Source: Candidatus Poribacteria bacterium
Lineage (GTDB): Bacteria; Poribacteria; WGA-4E; WGA-3G
Direction of reading: 5' to 3'
Assembly: GCA_022827225.1 (NCBI GenBank)
Contig: JAJDTJ010000104.1
Span: forward strand, 1 to 64,000
Length of the DNA stretch: 64,000 nucleotides
Below the pieces are notes generated by a model. The model searched no databases. It saw only the letters and a list, made by a program, of their open reading frames with translations, and was not told the origin of the DNA. Positions 1,541-51,674 of the stretch are shown one piece after another. Position 1 is the first letter of the stretch; every line of letters begins with the position of its first letter. The position numbers and the translations under genes are program-made.

Positions 1541-2650
1541 GTGAAAAGACGAAAGGTTCTCATCCTCTGCATCGATGCCGGTAGCCACGACTACTTGGCA
1601 GCGAGCGACCTCCCAACCCTTCAAGAATTGGCGGAGTCCGGGTTTTATCGGCATGCCAATGCCGTTATCCCGTCTGTCACAAACGTCAATAATGTGAGTA
1701 TCGCCACCGGTACGTTTCCTGAGACGCACGGCATCACGACGAATTACCATGTAGACAGAGCAACGGGTAAAGGCGAATTTATTGAGGATGACCGTTTTCT
1801 TCTCGCACCTACGCTTTTTCAAACGGCAAAAGCGTCTAAGTTTGCAGACAAAACCGCACTGTTCGTGACAAAGAAAAAACTGTTGCGGATGTTGGCATCG
1901 GGGACTGACATCGCAGTCGCAGCCGAGGATCCACCCGATGAATATATTCAGATGGCGGGCCCGGTTGAACCGATTTATTCGGCAGAGATTAATTGGTGGT
2001 TGCTCCGTGCGGTACGAGAGACGTTGCGGCTGGAAGACCCCGAACTCGTCTACTGCTCGACAACGGATTGGGTTCAGCATAAATACGCACCGGATGCCGA
2101 ACACTCCCAACAGCATCTCGTTATGCTTGATGCAATCATCGGTGATATTGTCAATGAGGATCCGGAACGCGAAATCTACATCACGGCGGACCACGGAATG
2201 TTAGCGAAGACCGTTGCCCTTGATCCGGGACGTGTACTTACAGAACGCGGTATCCCTGCCAGTTCGATCCCGATTATTAAGGACCGGTACGTCGCACACC
2301 ACGGTAACTTGGGCGGTGCCGCTTATGTCTTTCTCAAGAACCGTGACGAGATACCAGAAGCAATTCGGCAATTGTTAGACACGTCCGGCGTTGAAGAGGC
2401 ATATAACACGGAAGAGGCGGCGCAGATATTTCGGCTACATCCTGAACGGATCGGGGACATCTTCGTATTGGCAGATGAAACGACTGTCTTCGGAGAATTG
2501 GAAACCGCAGTGGAACCGACAAATGTGCGTTCGCACGGCTCGCGACACGAAAGTTACGTGCCGATTATTGGGTATAACAGTCCGTGGGCGGCGACAGATT
2601 TTGAATATAATCTTGATGTCGGCAGACTATTTTTGGAGAGTTTGCGTTAA
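1541..2650 (+). CDS. Alkaline phosphatase superfamily phosphoesterase, phosphonoacetate hydrolase-like
   Basis: A 369-residue type I phosphodiesterase/nucleotide pyrophosphatase-fold enzyme that would cleave a phosphoester or C-P bond using two metal ions. Visible motifs: a metal-binding Asp in LCIDAG (residue 11); the nucleophile region PSVTNVNNVSIATG (Thr near 47), very like the PhnA-type phosphonoacetate hydrolases, followed by PETHGI; DWVQHKYAPD; TADHGM; and a late HGSRHESY with the last metal His. The length fits the family. Translation starts at GTG 1541, where the MKRRKVLIL strand begins; AAGG is very close upstream. No other phosphonate genes (phnW, phnY, phn cluster) are nearby, so the substrate could be another phosphonate or phosphoester. 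Confidence 0.82.
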   Translation: MKRRKVLILCIDAGSHDYLAASDLPTLQELAESGFYRHANAVIPSVTNVNNVSIATGTFPETHGITTNYHVDRATGKGEFIEDDRFLLAPTLFQTAKASKFADKTALFVTKKKLLRMLASGTDIAVAAEDPPDEYIQMAGPVEPIYSAEINWWLLRAVRETLRLEDPELVYCSTTDWVQHKYAPDAEHSQQHLVMLDAIIGDIVNEDPEREIYITADHGMLAKTVALDPGRVLTERGIPASSIPIIKDRYVAHHGNLGGAAYVFLKNRDEIPEAIRQLLDTSGVEEAYNTEEAAQIFRLHPERIGDIFVLADETTVFGELETAVEPTNVRSHGSRHESYVPIIGYNSPWAATDFEYNLDVGRLFLESLR

Positions 2651-2701
2651 GTAGTGGAATTCATTCACAGAGTCTCCAGGTTCTTATACCGACCTTCGCG
2701 T

Positions 2702-2804
2702 TATAGTAAATCCCAAAAATAAATACACACTTTCAACCCTCGGTAGGTGCGGTTTCCTAACCGCACCGATGCTAAGTGTATAAGTAATTACAGGATCTAC
2801 TATA
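2702..2804. repeat. Nested palindromic element (MITE/REP-like)
   Basis: The ends TATAGTAAATCC (2702-2713) and GGATCTACTATA (2793-2804) are inverted repeats with one mismatch. In the centre GGTGCGGTT-TCCT-AACCGCACC (2746-2767) forms a perfect 9-bp hairpin. It encodes nothing and lies just upstream of the SDR gene's ribosome site, so it supplies that gene's leader. The nested design suggests a small non-autonomous mobile or REP-like repeat. Confidence 0.65.
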
Positions 2805-2828
2805 AATTATTTTAGGAGAGAGATAACA

Positions 2829-3788
2829 ATGAGTAGAAGTAATGTATTATGGGTCGATCAAGAAACGCTTTCAAAAGACGTAAGCGGAAAAAATTATATC
2901 GTAACCGGAGCCAATTCCGGTGTTGGTCTCGAAACTACAAGACAATTGATCAAGCAAGGTGGTCATGTAATAATGGCATGTAGAAGGCCCGATGCAGCAG
3001 AGGAAGTGGCTAAAAGTTTTACCGGATTAAAAGGCAGTTATGAAGTCATGAGATTAGACCTTGCTGACCTACAGTCGGTGAGAGATTTTGCTGATGAATT
3101 CTTAAAGAGAGATGATAAGCTGGATGCTTTAGTGTGCAACGCAGGACTCGTGACCATGGGTAGTGAAGTCAAACGTACGAAAGACGGGTTTGAGATGGCC
3201 ATAGGTGTTAGCTATTTCGGGCATTTCCTTCTTACTGAATTGTTGCTTGATGTATTAAAGCAAAGTGCACCATCAAGAATGGTTATTGTCTCGTCCGTTG
3301 TTCATGCCGGAAGTAGACGAAACCGGCCGGATGTGCATTTGGAAGATTTGAATTTTAACACAAGGAAATTCAATAACTTCGCTGCTTATAGTGAGGCTAA
3401 AGTCGCTGTTATATTATATGCAATGGAACTTGCGAAAAGACTCGAAGGCACAGGCGTTACAACAGCTTCCGTTCACCCAGGTTGGGCACGATCAAACTTC
3501 GGAGGCAATGGCTTGCTTATGAGAATCATGAGGGTGGTGATGGCACCGCTGAATCCTTTTATCACCGACAGTAGTGAAGAAGCAGCCCAACCATCACTTC
3601 ACTGTTTGCTCTCCGATGATGCGGCAAAGCATTCAGGCGCGTATTTTAGCCAAAGTAGTGTGCTCTATAGAGACAAAGAATGTAGAGATGGCGGTTGGCC
3701 CATGACATCTCCAAATCCGAATGCCAGAAATATGGATACTGCAAAGAAATTAGTCGATCTAAGCTACAAATTGGTTGGATTAACGTAA
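2829..3788 (+). CDS. Short-chain dehydrogenase/reductase (SDR), retinol dehydrogenase-like
   Basis: A 319-residue NAD(P)-dependent oxidoreductase with a Rossmann fold. Seen: TGANSGVG cofactor loop near residues 26-33, CRRPD after beta-2 (an Arg suited to NADPH), DLADL near 75, CNAGL near 104, a catalytic Ser region IVSSV near 156, and Y-S-E-A-K as the catalytic YxxxK near 190. The PGWARSNF segment after the active site is typical of the retinol dehydrogenase/protochlorophyllide reductase branch. AGGAGAG precedes the ATG. The gene looks more A+T-rich than the phosphoesterase before it, and a palindromic element lies on each side of it, which would fit acquisition by transfer. The substrate cannot be told. 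Confidence 0.88.
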   Translation: MSRSNVLWVDQETLSKDVSGKNYIVTGANSGVGLETTRQLIKQGGHVIMACRRPDAAEEVAKSFTGLKGSYEVMRLDLADLQSVRDFADEFLKRDDKLDALVCNAGLVTMGSEVKRTKDGFEMAIGVSYFGHFLLTELLLDVLKQSAPSRMVIVSSVVHAGSRRNRPDVHLEDLNFNTRKFNNFAAYSEAKVAVILYAMELAKRLEGTGVTTASVHPGWARSNFGGNGLLMRIMRVVMAPLNPFITDSSEEAAQPSLHCLLSDDAAKHSGAYFSQSSVLYRDKECRDGGWPMTSPNPNARNMDTAKKLVDLSYKLVGLT

Positions 3789-3891
3789 GTGCGATAAATA
3801 AAGTTGTAGAAAACGCTCCGTGTCTGTTTTTCATAAAGCGCGAACCAATAGGTTGTGCTACAAATACAGAGCTCACGTTTAAATAAAATAG

Positions 3892-4010
3892 GACTTACGC
3901 AGATTGCTCTTTTGTACCATAGGAGACCGTTAGCCTGTGCCCTGAGAACGCCTCTGTTTTTGAGGGTTTATCCGCTAACAGAGCGTTATATTGTCAAAAT
4001 TGCGTAAGTC
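3892..4010. mobile_element. Putative MITE with GACTTACGCA terminal repeats
   Basis: A 119-bp element bounded by perfect 10-bp inverted repeats GACTTACGCA (3892-3901) and TGCGTAAGTC (4001-4010). It has no reading frame. The interior holds GTTAGCCTGT-CCCTGAGAACG, which recurs in modified form at 18615-18652. No clear target duplication is seen (left flank AATAG, right flank TTGTA). The right end lies 17 bases before the ATG of the DUF1080 gene, so the element supplies its upstream region. GGACTTACGCA-type termini remind me of small elements in cyanobacteria and sponge symbionts; that is memory, not a search. Confidence 0.65.
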
Positions 4011-4027
4011 TTGTAAAAGGAGAAATT

Positions 4028-4636
4028 ATGTTATCAGAAAAAGAGAAAGCTGAAGGATGGGTATCCCTCTTTGATGGTGAAACGCTCAACGGTTGGGGCG
4101 CTACAGGAAAAGCCGAAGGATGGGTCATTGACGATGGCAGTATCCTCTGCACTGTTCGAGGTGGTAACTATCTCTATACTGAAGAACAGTACGATAACTT
4201 CGTCTTATCCCTCGATTACAAGACCGAACCGAGGGTCAACAGCGGGATATTCATCCGTTGGGCCGACCTGAATAATCCTGTTCAGACCGGACTTGAAATT
4301 CAGATTTTAGACACACACGGCAAAGCACCGACGACGAATCACGACTGCGGCGCGCTTTACGATGCTCTGGGACCGACCCGGAATACTTGTAAACCTGCGG
4401 GTGAGTGGAATACGATGGTGATTACATGCGACGGTAGCATCGTTGCCGTGACGCTCAACGACGAAGAGATCGTCCGCGCCGATCTCGATGAGTGGGACAC
4501 ACCGCACAAAAATCCTGATGGCAGCAGAAATAAGTTCGGCATCGCCCTCAAGGATTTTCCGAGAAATGGACATATCGGCATCCAAGACCACGGTGGGAAG
4601 ATCTGGTGCAAGAACATTAAGGTCAAGCCACTATAG
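4028..4636 (+). CDS. DUF1080 / 3-keto-disaccharide hydrolase domain protein
   Basis: A 202-residue single-domain protein with a concanavalin/LamG-like jelly-roll. Family hallmarks seen: GWVSLFDGETLNGWG near residues 10-24, GGNYLYTEEQYDNFVLSLDYK in the first half, NSGIFIRW, LEIQILD, and the closing HGGKIWCKNIKVKPL. DUF1080 proteins are known to bind or hydrolyse 3-keto-glycosides and abound in Planctomycetes, Verrucomicrobia and Poribacteria. There is no signal peptide, so this copy looks cytoplasmic, unlike many secreted relatives. AAAGGAG gives a strong ribosome site. The partner 3-dehydrogenases (Gfo/Idh/MocA type) are not adjacent; the nearest are at 43.4-45.0 kb. Confidence 0.88.
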   Translation: MLSEKEKAEGWVSLFDGETLNGWGATGKAEGWVIDDGSILCTVRGGNYLYTEEQYDNFVLSLDYKTEPRVNSGIFIRWADLNNPVQTGLEIQILDTHGKAPTTNHDCGALYDALGPTRNTCKPAGEWNTMVITCDGSIVAVTLNDEEIVRADLDEWDTPHKNPDGSRNKFGIALKDFPRNGHIGIQDHGGKIWCKNIKVKPL

Positions 4637-4728
4637 GACTATCTATAAACTATTGCGTCCATGCGTGGTTCCCAGATGCCTCAATTGGGCGCAACCAAAA
4701 GAAAGGAAATTGATGACACAAACGGACA

Positions 4729-5124
4729 TCACTCATCTTTTGGGTTGCCTTCCAGACTTACTGTGTGTTTAGGAGGATTAGCACTGAAAAGTGCGGTTTT
4801 GATGCTAACGTTTGCATCTGCCTTACGTTGAGTCGGCAACTGACACTCAAAGGTATTTAATATAGTGTTGAGTATGTCTAACTGTGGGACATCCTCGTTA
4901 AAGAGGGTATCCGAGAGAATTTCAGCATCAATACCCGTTCTTTTAGAAAGTTCAGAAACGCCACCCTGTGATTCTATAAAAGTTCGGAGTCCTTTCAAAA
5001 AGAAAGGGAGATCACCATCAGCAAGGTATTCCTCCAATGTTAATTGGAGATAGTCAATTGCTGCTTCCTGATCATTCGCAAGCCTCTGCTTTTGGTACTC
5101 ACGCCAATTTCCGATTTCTCTCAT
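4729..5124 (-). CDS. HigA-type addiction-module antitoxin, intact copy
   Basis: A 131-residue protein with the layout of the putative addiction module antidote family: a helical N-terminus (WREYQKQRL, DYLQLTLEEYLADGD), a conserved LKGLRTFIESQGGVSELSKRTG segment, and a helix-turn-helix in residues 60-100 (Q-G-G-V-S-E-L, then a recognition helix and NTILNTFECQL). It would bind its operator and, normally, a HigB/Gp49-like toxin. GGAGG lies ahead of the ATG, which overlaps the stop of the upstream truncated antitoxin by ATGA, so the two are translationally coupled. The C-terminal tail of about 30 residues is not typical. Because the toxin upstream is truncated, this antitoxin may now act as an orphan regulator. 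Confidence 0.72.
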   Translation of the reverse strand: MREIGNWREYQKQRLANDQEAAIDYLQLTLEEYLADGDLPFFLKGLRTFIESQGGVSELSKRTGIDAEILSDTLFNEDVPQLDILNTILNTFECQLPTQRKADANVSIKTALFSANPPKHTVSLEGNPKDE

Positions 5125-5318
5125 GGGTGTGCCTCCTTCCCGCCTTGCGCCTCTACCACATCACGCAGTGCCATCCAGAGCGATGCTGTGTTGCCATCCT
5201 CCTTATAGTCAGTTAACGCTGCCTCCAGATAATACATCGCAAACTCTGTGTCTGTGAGGTCTTTTAAGAGGTCATCCCTGAAACTGGTAGTCTGTTCAAG
5301 TATAGTTTCTGTGTTCAT
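5121..5318 (-). CDS. Truncated antitoxin paralog
   Basis: 65 residues that match only the N-terminal half of the same antidote family (DTEFAMYYLEAALTDYKEDGN, then a WMALRDVVEAQGG segment) and then stop after KEAHP before the helix-turn-helix. It is therefore a paralog of the downstream antitoxin that has lost the DNA-binding domain. It starts 12 bases after the toxin remnant and overlaps the next gene by ATGA. It could still be made as a short peptide, or be a relic of recombination between two tandem antitoxin genes. Confidence 0.55.
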   Translation of the reverse strand: MNTETILEQTTSFRDDLLKDLTDTEFAMYYLEAALTDYKEDGNTASLWMALRDVVEAQGGKEAHP

Positions 5319-45725: not shown

Positions 45726-46532
45726 ATGGATACCCTAAGAGACTTCGAGTTCAAGCAAAGAAAGTATATGCCTACCTTTCCGAAAGCGAGCGGAAAACCC
45801 ACTATTTATATTCAAGGATACCCTTGTGAGGACGATGAGCCTATGGCCGCAACAGGTTTTCACGCAGACCAGATTTCTATTTTTTCTGAGCAACTCTTTC
45901 GATACTTTGCACTGCATCCGCATATCTACATCGGTGTTGATAATTTTGTCTATTACCGTGAAGGCGACATTACAAGATTCGTCGCTCCAGATATTTACGT
46001 TGTTCTCGGTGTTGATAAATATCCACAGCGGCGCAGTTTTTATACGTGGTCAGAGGGGGCGGTGCCGACAACCATTTTCGAGTTCCTTTCTGATTCAACA
46101 GCGGATCAGGATCGGCATGAAAAAGTCCGACGCTATCTGATAGATATGGGTGCCCAAGAGTACTTCATCCATCAACCTGAAATGGAGAAACCTTCAGAAT
46201 TTCGGGGGTGGCGGCGAAATCCATCAGGTGGTGTCGTAGAACTGTCCCCGGATACAGACGGAGGTTTGTTCAGTGAAGCGTTAAATCTCTATTTTCGGTG
46301 GCAGGATCAGCTTGATACTCATGTCAGACTTTTGCGCCCGTATTTACCTGACGGTACTCCGATTACAACTTCGATGGAGGAGCATCAGCTTCGGATAGAA
46401 GAGCGTCAGCTTCGGATGGAGGAGCATCAGCTTCGGATAGAAGCGGAAGCGCGCGCAGCGGAGGAAGCACAACGGCGCCGGGAAGTAGAAGTTGAGCTGG
46501 AGCATCTCCGTCGGCAACTCTCAGATCGCTAA
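45726..46532 (+). CDS. Uma2 family (DUF820) putative endonuclease
   Basis: 268 residues. The fold is the PD-(D/E)xK nuclease of the Uma2/DUF820 family, very common in cyanobacteria and sponge symbionts. Seen: VAPDIYVVLGVDK (catalytic Asp), FEFLSDSTADQDRHEKVRRYL (family motif E-x-x-S-xx-T with helix), GAQEYFIHQP. The last 60 residues are a coiled coil containing three 7-residue units EEHQLRI/EERQLRM/EEHQLRI, encoded by 21-bp direct repeats (46380-46442). GGAGG-like GGAGGCG precedes the ATG. Real substrates of this family are not known. Confidence 0.85.
   Translation: MDTLRDFEFKQRKYMPTFPKASGKPTIYIQGYPCEDDEPMAATGFHADQISIFSEQLFRYFALHPHIYIGVDNFVYYREGDITRFVAPDIYVVLGVDKYPQRRSFYTWSEGAVPTTIFEFLSDSTADQDRHEKVRRYLIDMGAQEYFIHQPEMEKPSEFRGWRRNPSGGVVELSPDTDGGLFSEALNLYFRWQDQLDTHVRLLRPYLPDGTPITTSMEEHQLRIEERQLRMEEHQLRIEAEARAAEEAQRRREVEVELEHLRRQLSDR
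46380..46442. repeat. Three 21-bp repeats in the Uma2 coiled-coil tail
   Basis: GAGCATCAGCTTCGGATAG-type units at 46380-46400, 46401-46421 and 46422-46442, with a few changes in the middle unit. In-frame, so copy-number change lengthens the coiled coil by seven residues at a time. Confidence 0.8.
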
Positions 46533-46583
46533 GATAACGGTATTTAACGAGTGTATCTTCCATCCATTAACAACGGAGAAAAC

Positions 46584-47609
46584 ATGCGCAACAAATATAT
46601 CTTCTTAGTACTTATACTCCTCACATTTTTTGTCGGTTGCAATAGAGAAAAGAAACAATTAAATGTCTTTACATGGGCAGGCTACGTCAGCGATGACATC
46701 CGTGAGGGGTTTGAAAAGGAGTTCGGGGTTACCATCCTCGTTGATACCTTCGCCAGCAACGAAGATCTTCTCACGAAGTTGATGGCGGGTGCAACAGGAT
46801 ACGACATCATCATGCCGTCCGACTACATGGTATCCATCCTAATCAAGCAAAACCTGTTAGCCGAATTAAATCGCGACAATATCCCGAACTTTCAGAACAT
46901 CAGTCCGCTGTTCCTCGGTAAATACTTTGACTCGGAAAATCAATATTCTATCCCTTATACGTTCGGTACAGCAGGTATCGCTTACGACTCGGCTGTTATC
47001 TCGCCAGCGCCGGAGAGTTGGGCAGTACTATGGGACGACCAATACAAGAATCAGTTCAGTATGTTAGACGACCAGCGCGAGACGATCGGTGCTGCCCTTA
47101 AGCTGCTCGGATATAGTCTCAATAGCACCGATCCGGAGGAGATCAGAGCGGCGAAAGAGAAACTAATAGCCCAGGCACCGCTTGTGAAACAGTATAAGAG
47201 TGAGGCGGAAGAGCTTCTCATTGCCGGTGATGTGGTTATGGCGCATTGTTGGAGTGGCGATGCGTTCCGTGCGATTGAAACACGTCCGACGATCCGGTAC
47301 GTCATTCCAAAGGAAGGGTCGAGCCAGTTTATTGATGCCGTCTGCATACCGAAATCCGCACCGCATAAGGCACTCGCGGAGCAGTTTATTGACTACCTCC
47401 TCCGTCCTGAAGTCAACGCTAAGATTACCGCCTTCACGAAATATGGGACCTGCGTACCGACCGCGAAAGAATTCTTACCGGAAAATCTACGGGAACACAA
47501 ATTCATCTACCCGCCGAAAGCGGTATTGGAATCCCTTGAATGGTTGAGAGATCCAGGCGATTTTACGAGGCACTACGACCGCGCATGGGAGGAAATTAAG
47601 GCGAAATAG
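46584..47609 (+). CDS. PotD-like polyamine ABC transporter substrate-binding lipoprotein
   Basis: 341 residues from ATG 46584 (GGAGA upstream; the earlier ATG 46551 lies before the signal). Signal with lipobox: YIFLVLILLTFFVGC, lipid-anchored Cys near 18. Then the periplasmic-binding fold of the spermidine/putrescine class: NVFTWAGYVSDDIREGFEKEFG, GYDIIMPSDYMV, YSIPYTFGTAGIAYDS, and EAFRAIE-type helices. It would capture a polyamine or similar small cation for an ABC importer. The permease and ATPase genes (potABC) are not in the window; a stem-loop terminator lies just after the stop. Confidence 0.88.
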   Translation: MRNKYIFLVLILLTFFVGCNREKKQLNVFTWAGYVSDDIREGFEKEFGVTILVDTFASNEDLLTKLMAGATGYDIIMPSDYMVSILIKQNLLAELNRDNIPNFQNISPLFLGKYFDSENQYSIPYTFGTAGIAYDSAVISPAPESWAVLWDDQYKNQFSMLDDQRETIGAALKLLGYSLNSTDPEEIRAAKEKLIAQAPLVKQYKSEAEELLIAGDVVMAHCWSGDAFRAIETRPTIRYVIPKEGSSQFIDAVCIPKSAPHKALAEQFIDYLLRPEVNAKITAFTKYGTCVPTAKEFLPENLREHKFIYPPKAVLESLEWLRDPGDFTRHYDRAWEEIKAK

Positions 47610-47629: not shown

Positions 47630-47650
47630 GGCGAGGTTTCTAACCTCGCC
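47630..47650 (+). terminator. Stem-loop terminator after the PotD-like gene
   Basis: GGCGAGGTT-TCT-AACCTCGCC, a perfect 9-bp stem followed by ATTTTTAATTT. It is also a member of the same GAGGTT-TCT-AACCTC palindrome class as the hairpin core at 2746-2767. Confidence 0.7.
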
Positions 47651-47847: not shown

Positions 47848-48627
47848 ATGAAGGTCTTAGAAACGCTGTTATTCATGTTTCGGAACCCCGTCCCTTTCAT
47901 CGTTCATTTAACGTGTTGGTTTTTGTTTGCCGCTTGGGGAATCGTGTCGGACGATCCATTCGTCATAGAGACGTGGCCCTACATTGTCAAAATTGTGGAA
48001 CCGCCTGCGTCTATCGGAAATTTTCTAAAAGCTGCCTCAATTATTTGGGACGAAATTATAAAAGATTTAGCGGGAAACGGATTTTGGGTTCTTGTTGTCA
48101 TGCCGCCTTTTCTTATCTCTTACCGGGAGGCAGTCGGCAACCTAAAAGGTATTACCAGCGAACATCAAACATGGATGGCGTGGTACCGGCGACGACAAGA
48201 AGCAGGAACAGAAGGCGATAATTTCGTTGACGCCTCACCACCAGTGAAGGACATACGAGTCAACTCCTATTTCAGGAAAGCGCAAAAAACGCTTTTATCC
48301 ATGATTCGCAACCCGAAAATACTTCTCATTCATTTCTTATCCTGGATTCCTACTTACTTTTTACTAATCCTCATGACGGAATTCCCAGACCTTGCTGGTA
48401 TAGTTCGGACAGCGTCCGGCTTCATTGGTGATTTTTTCCGAGCTGTAGTTTATCTTTCGATAATTGCTGTTATATTCGGGCTCATTTCCAGCTACCAAGA
48501 GACAAGAGGCACCGTGAAAGGGGTAGCCAAAGTCCAACAGGTGTGGACAGAATGGTATCACCGACAACAAGAAACGAAAGGCCGAGAAACCTCTTTTGAC
48601 GTATCACCATCATTTAACACTTTCTAA
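47848..48627 (+). CDS. Modular membrane protein, two repeat units
   Basis: 259 residues, not a family I know. Two tandem units of about 125 residues, each with LLFM-x-RNP then two hydrophobic stretches (IVHLTCWFLFAAWG; FWVLVVMPPFLI) and closing SYREA-x-GNLKGI-x-E-x-x-x-W-x-x-WY-x-R-QQ-E-A. Each unit should contribute two membrane helices and a cytoplasmic loop with an amphipathic WxxWYxRQQ helix. The next gene at 48649 is a paralog with four units. GAGGTGG precedes the ATG. No catalytic motif seen. The loop suggests binding of a ligand or protein at the membrane surface. Confidence 0.65.
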   Translation: MKVLETLLFMFRNPVPFIVHLTCWFLFAAWGIVSDDPFVIETWPYIVKIVEPPASIGNFLKAASIIWDEIIKDLAGNGFWVLVVMPPFLISYREAVGNLKGITSEHQTWMAWYRRRQEAGTEGDNFVDASPPVKDIRVNSYFRKAQKTLLSMIRNPKILLIHFLSWIPTYFLLILMTEFPDLAGIVRTASGFIGDFFRAVVYLSIIAVIFGLISSYQETRGTVKGVAKVQQVWTEWYHRQQETKGRETSFDVSPSFNTF

Positions 48628-48648
48628 CTTTACGGCAATAAATCCGTT

Positions 48649-50070
48649 ATGAAAATCCAACGAACACTGTTGTTCATGCTTCGGAACCCGATACCTATTA
48701 TTGTCTATTTTCTCGTATGCTGGATTTTGCTATCTGCCTCAATTACTATGTCAGATGATCCGTTCGTACACGGGGCATTGCCAGATGCAGCTGAAGCGGC
48801 AGAAGGTGCTTTTGCGAATTTGCCTGGGTCCCTCTGGAAATTAGTTACAGCCCTCTCGATTATCACTGAAGAAATCTCCCGAGATTTTACATTTACATAT
48901 TTGGTGTGGCCACTTGTGATCCCTCCTGCTCTCATATTGGGTTACCGAGAGGCGAGGAGCCTTCGGAATGGTATTGCTACAGAACGAAAAGCGTGGGTAC
49001 AGTGGCTTGAGCGACAACAGTTAGTAAAGGCGGAACGAGGGATTTATGAAACACCGCCATTATCAGAACATATCGCGGGCGGCATCTATTTCATATCTGC
49101 CCGCGAAACAGGGCTATTTATGTTTGGGCACCCGACACTCCCTTCTGGTCATTTCGTATGTTGGTTTACACTGTTCGCGCTTCCTATTCTATTTGACGGA
49201 AGCGACTTCGTGCGGTCCCTTCCCGGAGTCGTTATCGCTGCCGCTATATTTACGCTCATATTGAGTTACCGAGAGGCGAGAAGCAACCTCAAAGGAATCG
49301 CGATAGAGAAAGATATTTGGGCGAAGTGGTACCACCGGCAAAGCAAAGCGGTTGCTCACGGAAATCCATTTGAAGAACCGCCATCATCGGAAAATATGGA
49401 AGCGTATTCTTATTATGGGGAAATCCAAGAAACATTGATTTTCATGCTGCGTAACATCGGGACGTTTGTTGTTCACCTTATGTGCTGGGTTTTCGCGATT
49501 GCGCTATTATTCTGTCTGACACTCTCACCAGAGAAATATCCTGTTGGTATGTTGGATTTAATAGATATCATCGGACTATTTGGACAACTCCTTCCTTGGA
49601 TTGCTATAATTGTATTCATCATCAGTTACCGAGAAGCAAAAGGGAACCTTAAAGGTATTGCCAATGAGCAACGGGTATGGATGCAATGGTATCATCAACA
49701 ACAGGAAACAATAAGGCTGGGGAACGCTTTTGAGGATTCTCCACCATCTGAAAATAGACAAATCGGTTCGTATTTCAAGATCGCACAACAGGCTGTCTTA
49801 TTCATGATACGCAATCCGCTATCTATTATCGTCCACTTGACATGCTGGTTTGCCGGATTTATTTTCTTGTTCTATGAAATTTCGGATTCCGAGTTGTCCC
49901 TCATTGTGATTATATCGGCTCTGATCTCCAGTTATCAAGAGGCGAGGGGCACTGTAAAAGGCACTGATAGAGAAACGGAAGTCTGGACAAAATGGTATCA
50001 AAGGCAAACCGGAGCGGAAGCACAAGGCTATACACTCGCCGAGGTGCCCCCGGCGATAAAAATGGGATAA
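48649..50070 (+). CDS. Modular membrane protein, four repeat units
   Basis: 473 residues with four tandem copies of the unit seen in the previous gene: LLFMLRNP- hydrophobic pair -SYREA-x-NLKGI-xE-x-x-W-x-x-WY-x-x-QQ. Units begin near residues 1, 140, 260 and 365 (FMLRNPIPIIVYFLVC, LFMFGHPTLPSG, LIFMLRNIGTFVVHLMCW, LFMIRNPLSIIVHLTCW). The 21-base gap after the first gene and the shared module make a clear two-gene operon. About eight membrane helices are expected. Neither start nor stop shows frameshifts; both proteins look under selection. Confidence 0.65.
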   Translation: MKIQRTLLFMLRNPIPIIVYFLVCWILLSASITMSDDPFVHGALPDAAEAAEGAFANLPGSLWKLVTALSIITEEISRDFTFTYLVWPLVIPPALILGYREARSLRNGIATERKAWVQWLERQQLVKAERGIYETPPLSEHIAGGIYFISARETGLFMFGHPTLPSGHFVCWFTLFALPILFDGSDFVRSLPGVVIAAAIFTLILSYREARSNLKGIAIEKDIWAKWYHRQSKAVAHGNPFEEPPSSENMEAYSYYGEIQETLIFMLRNIGTFVVHLMCWVFAIALLFCLTLSPEKYPVGMLDLIDIIGLFGQLLPWIAIIVFIISYREAKGNLKGIANEQRVWMQWYHQQQETIRLGNAFEDSPPSENRQIGSYFKIAQQAVLFMIRNPLSIIVHLTCWFAGFIFLFYEISDSELSLIVIISALISSYQEARGTVKGTDRETEVWTKWYQRQTGAEAQGYTLAEVPPAIKMG

Positions 50071-50216: not shown

Positions 50217-50245
50217 TTGACTTCTTGTGTAGAATAGGATATGAT
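50217..50245 (+). promoter_or_regulatory. Promoter of the sulfatase gene
   Basis: TTGACT, 17-base spacer, TATGAT (50240-50245). The apparent ATG at 50241 lies inside this -10 box, so translation more likely begins at the TTG 50277. Confidence 0.6.
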
Positions 50246-50276
50246 ATGGCAAATCGTAAATTCAAAGGAGCCACAC

Positions 50277-51674
50277 TTGAGCAGACCAAATATCCTATTT
50301 ATTATGTCTGACGACCACGCTTCGCACGCTATCAGCAGCTACGGAAGTCGGATTAATCAAACACCGCACCTTGATCGTATCGCCGATGGCGGTATGGTTC
50401 TGCAGAACTGTTTCTGCGTTAACTCCATCTGTACACCGAGCCGTGCGAACATTTTGACGGGCAAACATAGCCATCTCAACGGTGTCAAGACGTTAGGCGA
50501 TAATTTTGATGGCAGAAGACCGAGCGTCGCGAAGATGCTACAGGCAGATGGCTATCAAACCGCGATGGTCGGCAAATGGCATCTCGGACACGGTGGAAAT
50601 GCCGATCCGACAGGTTTTGACTACTGGAACGTGCTACCCGGACAGGGACTCTATCACGATCCGGTGATGATTGAACCGCACGGTAGAACGACGCATAAAG
50701 GCTACGCTACCGACATCATCACCGATTTCTCGTTGGAATGGCTGCAGCATCGCGACCGGGAGCGTCCGTTCTTCATGATGTGCCATCACAAGGCACCGCA
50801 TCGTCCGTGGGATTCCGATGAAAAGCATGCGCAGATGTTTGAGGATGGCGATGTCCCGATGCCGGACAATTTTTTCGACGACTACGCGAACCGTTCAAAC
50901 GCCGCGAAGGAAGCGAAGATGCGTGTCTTTGACCACATGACCGAGCGGGACCTCAAGATTGATAAACTCGGTCCGCCGCCAGAGGGGTTATCTGATAAGG
51001 AGCGGGCAAACTGGAATTATCAGCGATATATCAAAGAATATCTCCGCTGCGTCGCCTCAATTGATGACAATGTGGGACGGATGCTCGACTATCTTGACGA
51101 AGACGGCATCGCCGATGATACAATGGTTATCTATACCTCTGACCAAGGGTTTTTCTTAGGCGACCACGGGTGGTATGACAAACGGTTCATGTACGAAGAA
51201 TCGTTGCGGATGCCGTTCCTTATTCGCTATCCGCGCGAGATTCAACCTGGCAGTTCATCCGAGGCGATGGCACTAAATATCGACTTCGCAGAGACTTGGC
51301 TCGACTACGCTGGCGTACCAATTCCTGATGACATGCAAGGCACGAGTTTACGTCCAATCCTCAATGGCGAAACACCTGATGACTGGCGTACGTCCATGTA
51401 CTACCGTTATTGGATGCACCTCGCCCACCACTATGTCGCTGCCCACTATGGGATACGGACGGATCGCTATAAACTGATTTATTACTACGGCGAGGCACTC
51501 GGCACATCTGGGTCCCTTGATGAATCGAAAGAACCGGAATGGGAGCTTTTTGATCTGGAGAAAGACCCTAATGAGATGTGCAGTGTCTACGACGAGCCGG
51601 CTTACGCGGATATTGTTACCGAATTGACGGAAGAGTTATATCGACTCAAAGCAGAAGCAAGAGACGAAGAGTAG
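50277..51674 (+). CDS. Type I sulfatase (arylsulfatase family)
   Basis: 465 residues from TTG 50277, which has AAAGGAG 6 bases upstream; the longer ATG at 50241 falls in the promoter. Family order: RPNILFIMSDDHASHA with two metal Asp, CTPSRANILTGKHSH where Cys becomes formylglycine, GKWHLGH, HKAPHRPW, DQGFFLGDHGWYDKRFMYEESLRMP with metal and sulfate residues, and a C-terminal sub-domain. No signal peptide is seen from this start, so export is uncertain. Such enzymes remove sulfate from host glycans or aryl sulfates. The maturation enzyme in the window (56824) lacks one key Cys, so a separate FGE may be needed. Confidence 0.92.
   Translation: MSRPNILFIMSDDHASHAISSYGSRINQTPHLDRIADGGMVLQNCFCVNSICTPSRANILTGKHSHLNGVKTLGDNFDGRRPSVAKMLQADGYQTAMVGKWHLGHGGNADPTGFDYWNVLPGQGLYHDPVMIEPHGRTTHKGYATDIITDFSLEWLQHRDRERPFFMMCHHKAPHRPWDSDEKHAQMFEDGDVPMPDNFFDDYANRSNAAKEAKMRVFDHMTERDLKIDKLGPPPEGLSDKERANWNYQRYIKEYLRCVASIDDNVGRMLDYLDEDGIADDTMVIYTSDQGFFLGDHGWYDKRFMYEESLRMPFLIRYPREIQPGSSSEAMALNIDFAETWLDYAGVPIPDDMQGTSLRPILNGETPDDWRTSMYYRYWMHLAHHYVAAHYGIRTDRYKLIYYYGEALGTSGSLDESKEPEWELFDLEKDPNEMCSVYDEPAYADIVTELTEELYRLKAEARDEE

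Follow-up and report, generated by a model that had tools for sequence, protein, structure and literature searches.

Repeated two-helix membrane units in Poribacteria: position-specific copies, turnover at one gene site, and a possible docking scaffold

Introduction

Besides its two membrane helices, SLATT has a cytosolic helix. The bare topology of SLATT/Saf_2TM proteins (PF18303), a hairpin plus a cytosolic helix, is shared by the units of the two poribacterial genes described here. The SLATT hairpin and its role as a two-transmembrane, pore-forming effector are set out in part of PMC7159879. A second precedent is provided by membrane proteins that grew by internal duplication, among them the SWEET and SemiSWEET sugar transporters, whose three-helix unit stands alone or is fused in tandem (part of PMC5742349), whereas each poribacterial unit is a two-helix hairpin, charge gives all units the same orientation, and their best kept part is soluble. 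The host cell is itself a matter of discussion, its compartmentation being treated as debated in parts of PMC3909097 and PMC5087111.

The two genes, A and B, lie on a 64,000-nucleotide stretch of DNA from a Candidatus Poribacteria bacterium (assembly GCA_022827225.1, contig JAJDTJ010000104.1, positions 1 to 64,000; hereafter the window). An original prediction described them as adjacent genes with two and four copies of one unit, without a named family, in which a strictly conserved loop helix was held to be under selection. By examining the units, their relatives and their neighbourhood across 84 genomes of the phylum, we arrive at a tentative reading of what such proteins may do.

Results and discussion

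Two adjacent genes built from one unit

Gene A (47848..48627; an open reading frame of 259 aa, with four predicted membrane helices by hydropathy) and gene B (48649..50070; 473 aa, at least eight predicted membrane helices by hydropathy) are both on the plus strand with 21 bases between them. Alignment and the unit profile divide A into two units (47848..48270 and 48271..48624) and B into four (48649..49089, 49090..49413, 49414..49773 and 49774..50067), all on the plus strand, and the first unit of A carries the SDDPF insert that characterises first units. Once cut, the copies align over unit length and are diverged; for all 15 unit pairs the local alignment score (93-221; z 9.3-19.4) is higher than that of any of 200 locally shuffled controls (best 56-87), and the repeat is therefore more than shared hydrophobicity. 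The two-copy and four-copy architecture of the original prediction is thus borne out, while its unit length of about 120 residues becomes a range of 98-147 aa, and of the two motifs that it placed in every unit, LLFM-x-RNP is literal in two of the six (A1, B1) and degenerate in the other four, and SYREA-x-(G/S)NLKGI is literal in three (A1, B2, B3) and degenerate in A2, B1 and B4. In each unit a two-helix membrane hairpin without charges leads into a predicted cytosolic helix that is positively charged; this helix has G-xxx-G and W-xx-W-Y features, and an acidic-proline tail comes after it.

As had been proposed, neither protein could be placed in a named family: A and B fall below every curated cut-off of Pfam and NCBIfam, those of transporter and receptor families included, have no match in PHROGs or PADLOC, and find nothing better than sub-cut-off matches among PDB sequences, and none of the papers listed by searches on Poribacteria in an open-access library names the family in its title or abstract start. 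DUF2304 (PF10066) of Pfam has a weak likeness to the membrane part of A unit 2 (E 1.6e-4); A scores 22.3 bits against a cut-off of 25.5, the match (149-219) ends before the WxxWY helix, and seven of 22 relatives match at E<=0.5 (best E 3.7e-5; E-values only). The two proteins might alternatively be effectors like SLATT or Saf_2TM, with hairpins that open a pore once the cytosolic helix is triggered. This we regard as highly improbable: the two share the bare arrangement of two membrane helices and a cytosolic helix, and A has a single weak match to Saf_2TM (E 0.046), but that match scores 14.0 bits where the cut-off asks for 29.5, only one of 22 relatives matches at E<=0.5, and PADLOC matches neither A nor B. 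The eight neighbours scanned in the window are metabolic; none of them matches a model of a nucleotide sensor or a nuclease, and conflict-system neighbours such as would suit Saf_2TM proteins were not seen there.

A two-unit model of A (22 alignment rows; pLDDT 76.7, pTM 0.71) predicts, for each unit, a short helix, a membrane helix and a long helix (80-121 and 182-243), the long helices spanning the second membrane segment together with the conserved part. The four-unit model of B (10 alignment rows) is weak (pTM 0.46), too poor for any arrangement of arms to be claimed from it. When the two-unit model was searched against the PDB, Foldseek gave 47 matches with a best E of 1.3, none significant; a VIA search of the PDB gave nothing significant either (best 4u9n, which we take to be MgtE; Z 5.5, rmsd 4.3, 126 residues), nor did a search of viral models (best E 1.3). 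Rows naming ABC exporters, MgtE, FLVCR1 and TatBC were set aside, as such match levels are common for helical models.

Conservation, charge and topology

Across 141 units (rows with fewer than 70 of 117 columns being left out), the helix is the most conserved region, with a mean pairwise identity of 55% within positions and 40% between them. It is followed by the N-terminal stretch (49% and 32%), the two membrane segments (47% and 46% within; 26% and 24% between), the tail after the helix (37% and 23%) and the outer loop (33% and 14%). W92 and W95 co-occur in 130 of the 141 units and G80 and G84 in 119, and conservation along the helix peaks about every four residues (p 0.006 at 90 degrees, one of eight angles tried, and marginal once these are counted). 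In all 14 gene pairs tried, dN/dS lies between 0.18 and 0.44 (Nei-Gojobori), so that the genes are under purifying selection. Selection on the conserved helix, as originally suggested, is supported by these values, and conservation persists among homologues; "strict" was too strong a word for it. The placing of that helix in a loop between membrane segments did not survive, since the two-unit model makes it a continuation of the second membrane helix and charge puts it inside.

The membrane segments are nearly without charge (0.05 and 0.03 K/R per unit), and the counts of K+R and D+E per unit are 2.5 and 0.4 in the N-terminal flank, 1.1 and 3.3 in the outer loop, and 4.9 and 3.0 in the helix. 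By the positive-inside rule, which is well established, the basic flanks and the acidic outer loop argue that both ends of a unit are inside (N-in/C-in), and the conserved helix is accordingly predicted to face the cytosol. The first membrane helix has a partly conserved His (67%) and Trp (90%).

Unit numbers and the relationships of the units

The unit profile, run over the fetched loci, found 56 open reading frames, 17 with four units, 34 with two and five with one; no frame has exactly three complete units or exceeds four, and two of the two-unit frames are apparent halves of one split four-unit gene (G072). Proteins with varying unit numbers, for which the original prediction had suggested a profile search, thus do occur, with one, two or four units. 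That these numbers reflect a tetramer was considered and dropped, because five two-unit proteins of the sister genus (L065, L067, L070, L074 and L075; 284-291 aa) continue after unit 2. A partial third profile match is found in L065 (E 1e-6), L067 (E 4e-6) and L070 (E 2) and none in L074 or L075, and the two extensions that were read, those of L070 and L075, are hydrophobic and have no WxxWY helix motif.

In a unit tree with few columns and many open forks, the units group by position rather than by protein, the 14 position groups needing 19 tree changes where shuffles need 100. First units of two-unit and four-unit proteins, A unit 1 among them, group together in both genera (43 rows, support 93), and second units of two-unit proteins, including A unit 2, group with the last units of four-unit proteins (45 rows, support 78). 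Judged by sequence, then, units are position-specific, with those of A resembling B's first and last ones. Either A has the look of a four-unit protein minus its middle pair, or B that of A plus an inserted pair. In G011 a relic has the beginning of a first unit and the final part of a last unit, in shifted frames and within some 340 bases, a pattern that fits internal deletion. Pairwise scores are insufficient as proof that A equals B1 plus B4: A1 scores best with B1 (221), but A2 favours B3 (175) over B4 (166). First units of A-type proteins have a mean identity of 37% to B1 and 39% to B3. The claim rests on the tree.

Two further variants were noted. In a two-unit subgroup (L093, L094, L097, L098 and L099), an insert in the unit-2 helix seems to duplicate part of the W..WY stretch. 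One-unit members of the sister genus (121-128 aa; L065 11327-11689, L066 8585-8947, L068 8170-8532 and L180 3142-3525) end in CPxCG, possibly a zinc knuckle, and their genes are near a four-unit gene or are the sole occupant of the site.

Distribution among genomes

When contigs were scanned with relatives of A, 24 loci were recovered, each of them from Candidatus or uncultured Poribacteria. Full units were found in 35 of the 84 genomes of the phylum and in none of 302 sampled outside it (386 relatives less the 84), which suggests a lineage-specific family. With A as the query, 36 of the 84 match at E<=1e-3, G050 and G051 in the tail only; a profile of the two-unit proteins matches 36 of the 386 genomes at E<=1e-5, none of them outside the phylum, and 34 with full units remain once these two tail-only genomes are removed. 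The total of 35 includes G070, whose one-unit gene escaped the other searches and came to light when the unit profile was run on fetched DNA. In the other 49 genomes of the phylum unit genes were not found. An origin in phages or plasmids was rejected, B being unmatched in viral contigs and phages and one single-hairpin relative unmatched in plasmids.

One gene site and its neighbours

Two conserved neighbours from outside the unit family flank the pair on the plus strand: upstream, a gene for a PotD-like solute-binding protein (46551..47609; SBP_bac_8, E 9.7e-37), whose best NCBIfam match is PotD, below the cut-off, and downstream a sulfatase gene (50241..51674; Sulfatase, E 1e-56). In 26 genomes units lie between these two genes on one contig (positions judged by eye), and in nine more they lie beside one flanking gene or the site is split at contig ends, which accounts for all 35; the binding-protein gene of G023 and G032 lies elsewhere, in the middle of a contig. 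Neighbour clustering over 35 loci from 34 genomes places the sulfatase and a sugar-isomerase-like gene in 32, and a rhodanese and the binding protein in 28. Pfam assigns the eight window neighbours to oxidoreductases, a rhodanese, the binding protein, the sulfatase, a UxuA-like protein and PQQ_2 proteins, with one unmatched.

Adjoining the binding-protein gene is an open reading frame at 45726-46532 (268 aa, with glutamate-rich repeats near its end) that has no Pfam or NCBIfam match; a Uma2 identity for it was rejected, as it has no Pfam match and is absent from the 28 Uma2-family matches of the genome (G000, 5.6 Mb). The same genome has 49 PotA-type ATPase matches.

The setting raises the possibility that A and B serve as the membrane component of a transporter or channel, working with the PotD-like binding protein, on polyamines, or with sulfatase products. 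The four and at least eight predicted membrane helices, the position between binding protein and sulfatase in 26 genomes, and the PotD match, though below its cut-off, speak for such a role. It is nonetheless distinctly unlikely in our view. The binding-protein and sulfatase genes remain neighbours on one contig in 11 genomes in which no unit gene was detected in between, so that neither seems to need the units; the membrane segments are almost uncharged; and of the PotA-type matches in the genome (at E<=1e-20), one is over the cut-off and none is on the window's contig. A terminator-like hairpin (47630..47650, plus strand; nine pairs followed by a T-rich stretch) also separates the binding-protein gene from A. 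Its exact 21-mer occurs once in the genome, and the count of such hairpins, one against a shuffle mean of 3.3, is itself no evidence.

Units have repeatedly shrunk and been lost at this one conserved site. At eight of the 11 unit-less sites the flanking matches end 11 to 111 bases apart, and the gaps in G068 and G079 hold a relic of a one-unit gene (23-26 residues; E 6e-6 and 2e-8 at best, in a search of ten short stretches only). The gap in G034 holds a kelch-repeat protein (Pfam) and that in G027 a similar frame by eye (L177 2359-3447, by Pfam; L178 2358-3563), and in G081 there is 1.1 kb without a recognisable gene. A and B might accordingly be fast-turnover lineage orphans at a permissive site, selected for membrane folding only, in which the tail serves stability or targeting as a tag and is not a docking surface. 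The truncated genes, the relics and the empty sites agree with this, as do the kelch-type occupants and the identities to the nearest genomes, at which A keeps 68-73% and B 63-68% while the binding protein keeps 91-92% and the sulfatase 92-94%. Against it stand the dN/dS values, the retention of position-specific units across two genera, and the fact that conservation is strongest in the cytosolic helix and not in the membrane part, and we consider it somewhat unlikely.

A helix-and-tail module shared with single-hairpin proteins

A profile built from 14 tails matches the helix and tail of every unit on the plus strand, at 48127..48243 (E 5.3e-15) and 48499..48612 (E 1.3e-15) in A, and at 48949..49068 (E 5.4e-8), 49273..49392 (E 3.6e-21), 49633..49752 (E 1.3e-21) and 49939..50055 (E 1.0e-14) in B. 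Beyond these six it finds four other places in the same genome; tail matches occur in 59 of the 84 genomes of the phylum, all from one order, and in none of the 302 sampled outside. Among 98 distinct open reading frames with a tail (fetched DNA, overlapping loci), 27 lack a full unit and have a single tail, reduced to 23 after removal of near-copies; among the 23, L113 is a truncated part of gene A itself, and the L067 entry is a fragment of a one-unit gene that is broken. Several of the single-tail frames are fragments, or have one helix only above the hydropathy cut-off, and most of the longer ones have a two-helix hairpin, xxEG repeats and WxxWxxRRxxAxxxGxPFxEPPP at most 11 residues from the end.

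These AEGK-repeat single-hairpin proteins of the same phylum (G000:C81, C6 and others) resemble the units in bearing a C-terminal WxxWxxRxxxAxxxGxxFxEPPP after a hairpin, and differ in having one hairpin, a variable number of xxEG tetrapeptides and hairpins that cannot be aligned to those of the units. By hhalign, the modules of the two groups align over 39 columns (probability 98, E 9e-14), and the hairpins alone give a probability of 3 (12 single-hairpin sequences). As far as sequence comparison can tell, the helix-and-tail is thus not private to the unit and also ends single-hairpin proteins, a new finding. Several AEGK-repeat single-hairpin tail genes lie within about 3 kb in L183 (G083:C1:196500-203000; 1771-5175), and pairs of such genes occur in L184, L185 and L186.

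Conclusions

What A and B do is best explained, in our tentative view, by a lineage-specific, membrane-anchored and multivalent docking scaffold, which is quite possible if short of probable; the transporter and effector readings are less supported. Each unit would be a two-helix hairpin with both termini inside that presents a long cytosolic helix, and the helix, with its Gly-xxx-Gly strip, Trp-xx-Trp-Tyr patch and acidic-proline tail, would be the working docking surface. The shared module on single-hairpin proteins whose hairpins cannot be aligned may point to a common partner or to tail-to-tail assembly, and fusion of two or four units would raise the number of docking arms per anchor. Helix conservation, the charge pattern, the model of A, the module alignment, helix periodicity and purifying selection all support the docking scaffold. 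Several observations count against it. Unit genes were not found in 49 of the 84 genomes and are missing at the known site in 11, and the job is therefore dispensable; tails are much weakened in some members, such as G073, which has no tail match at 1e-4; the extra hydrophobic segments of the sister genus would not be needed by a pure multiplier of arms; and the His and Trp of the first helix could function within the membrane instead.

A wider proposal, which we hold to be possible but doubtful, is that the helix-and-tail is an assembly tag specific to Poribacteria, and that a set of anchors whose hairpins are unrelated, each bearing one, two or four tags, would build a lineage-specific membrane scaffold in these sponge symbionts, the number of tags being tuned by gain and loss of units at one site. 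An unnamed membrane protein family with variation in unit number is now defined, and its short, portable module offers clear residues to mutate. If the tag does not assemble, the family nevertheless illustrates clearly how units are gained and lost at a single site; if it does, it would provide a handle on how Poribacteria organise their membranes.
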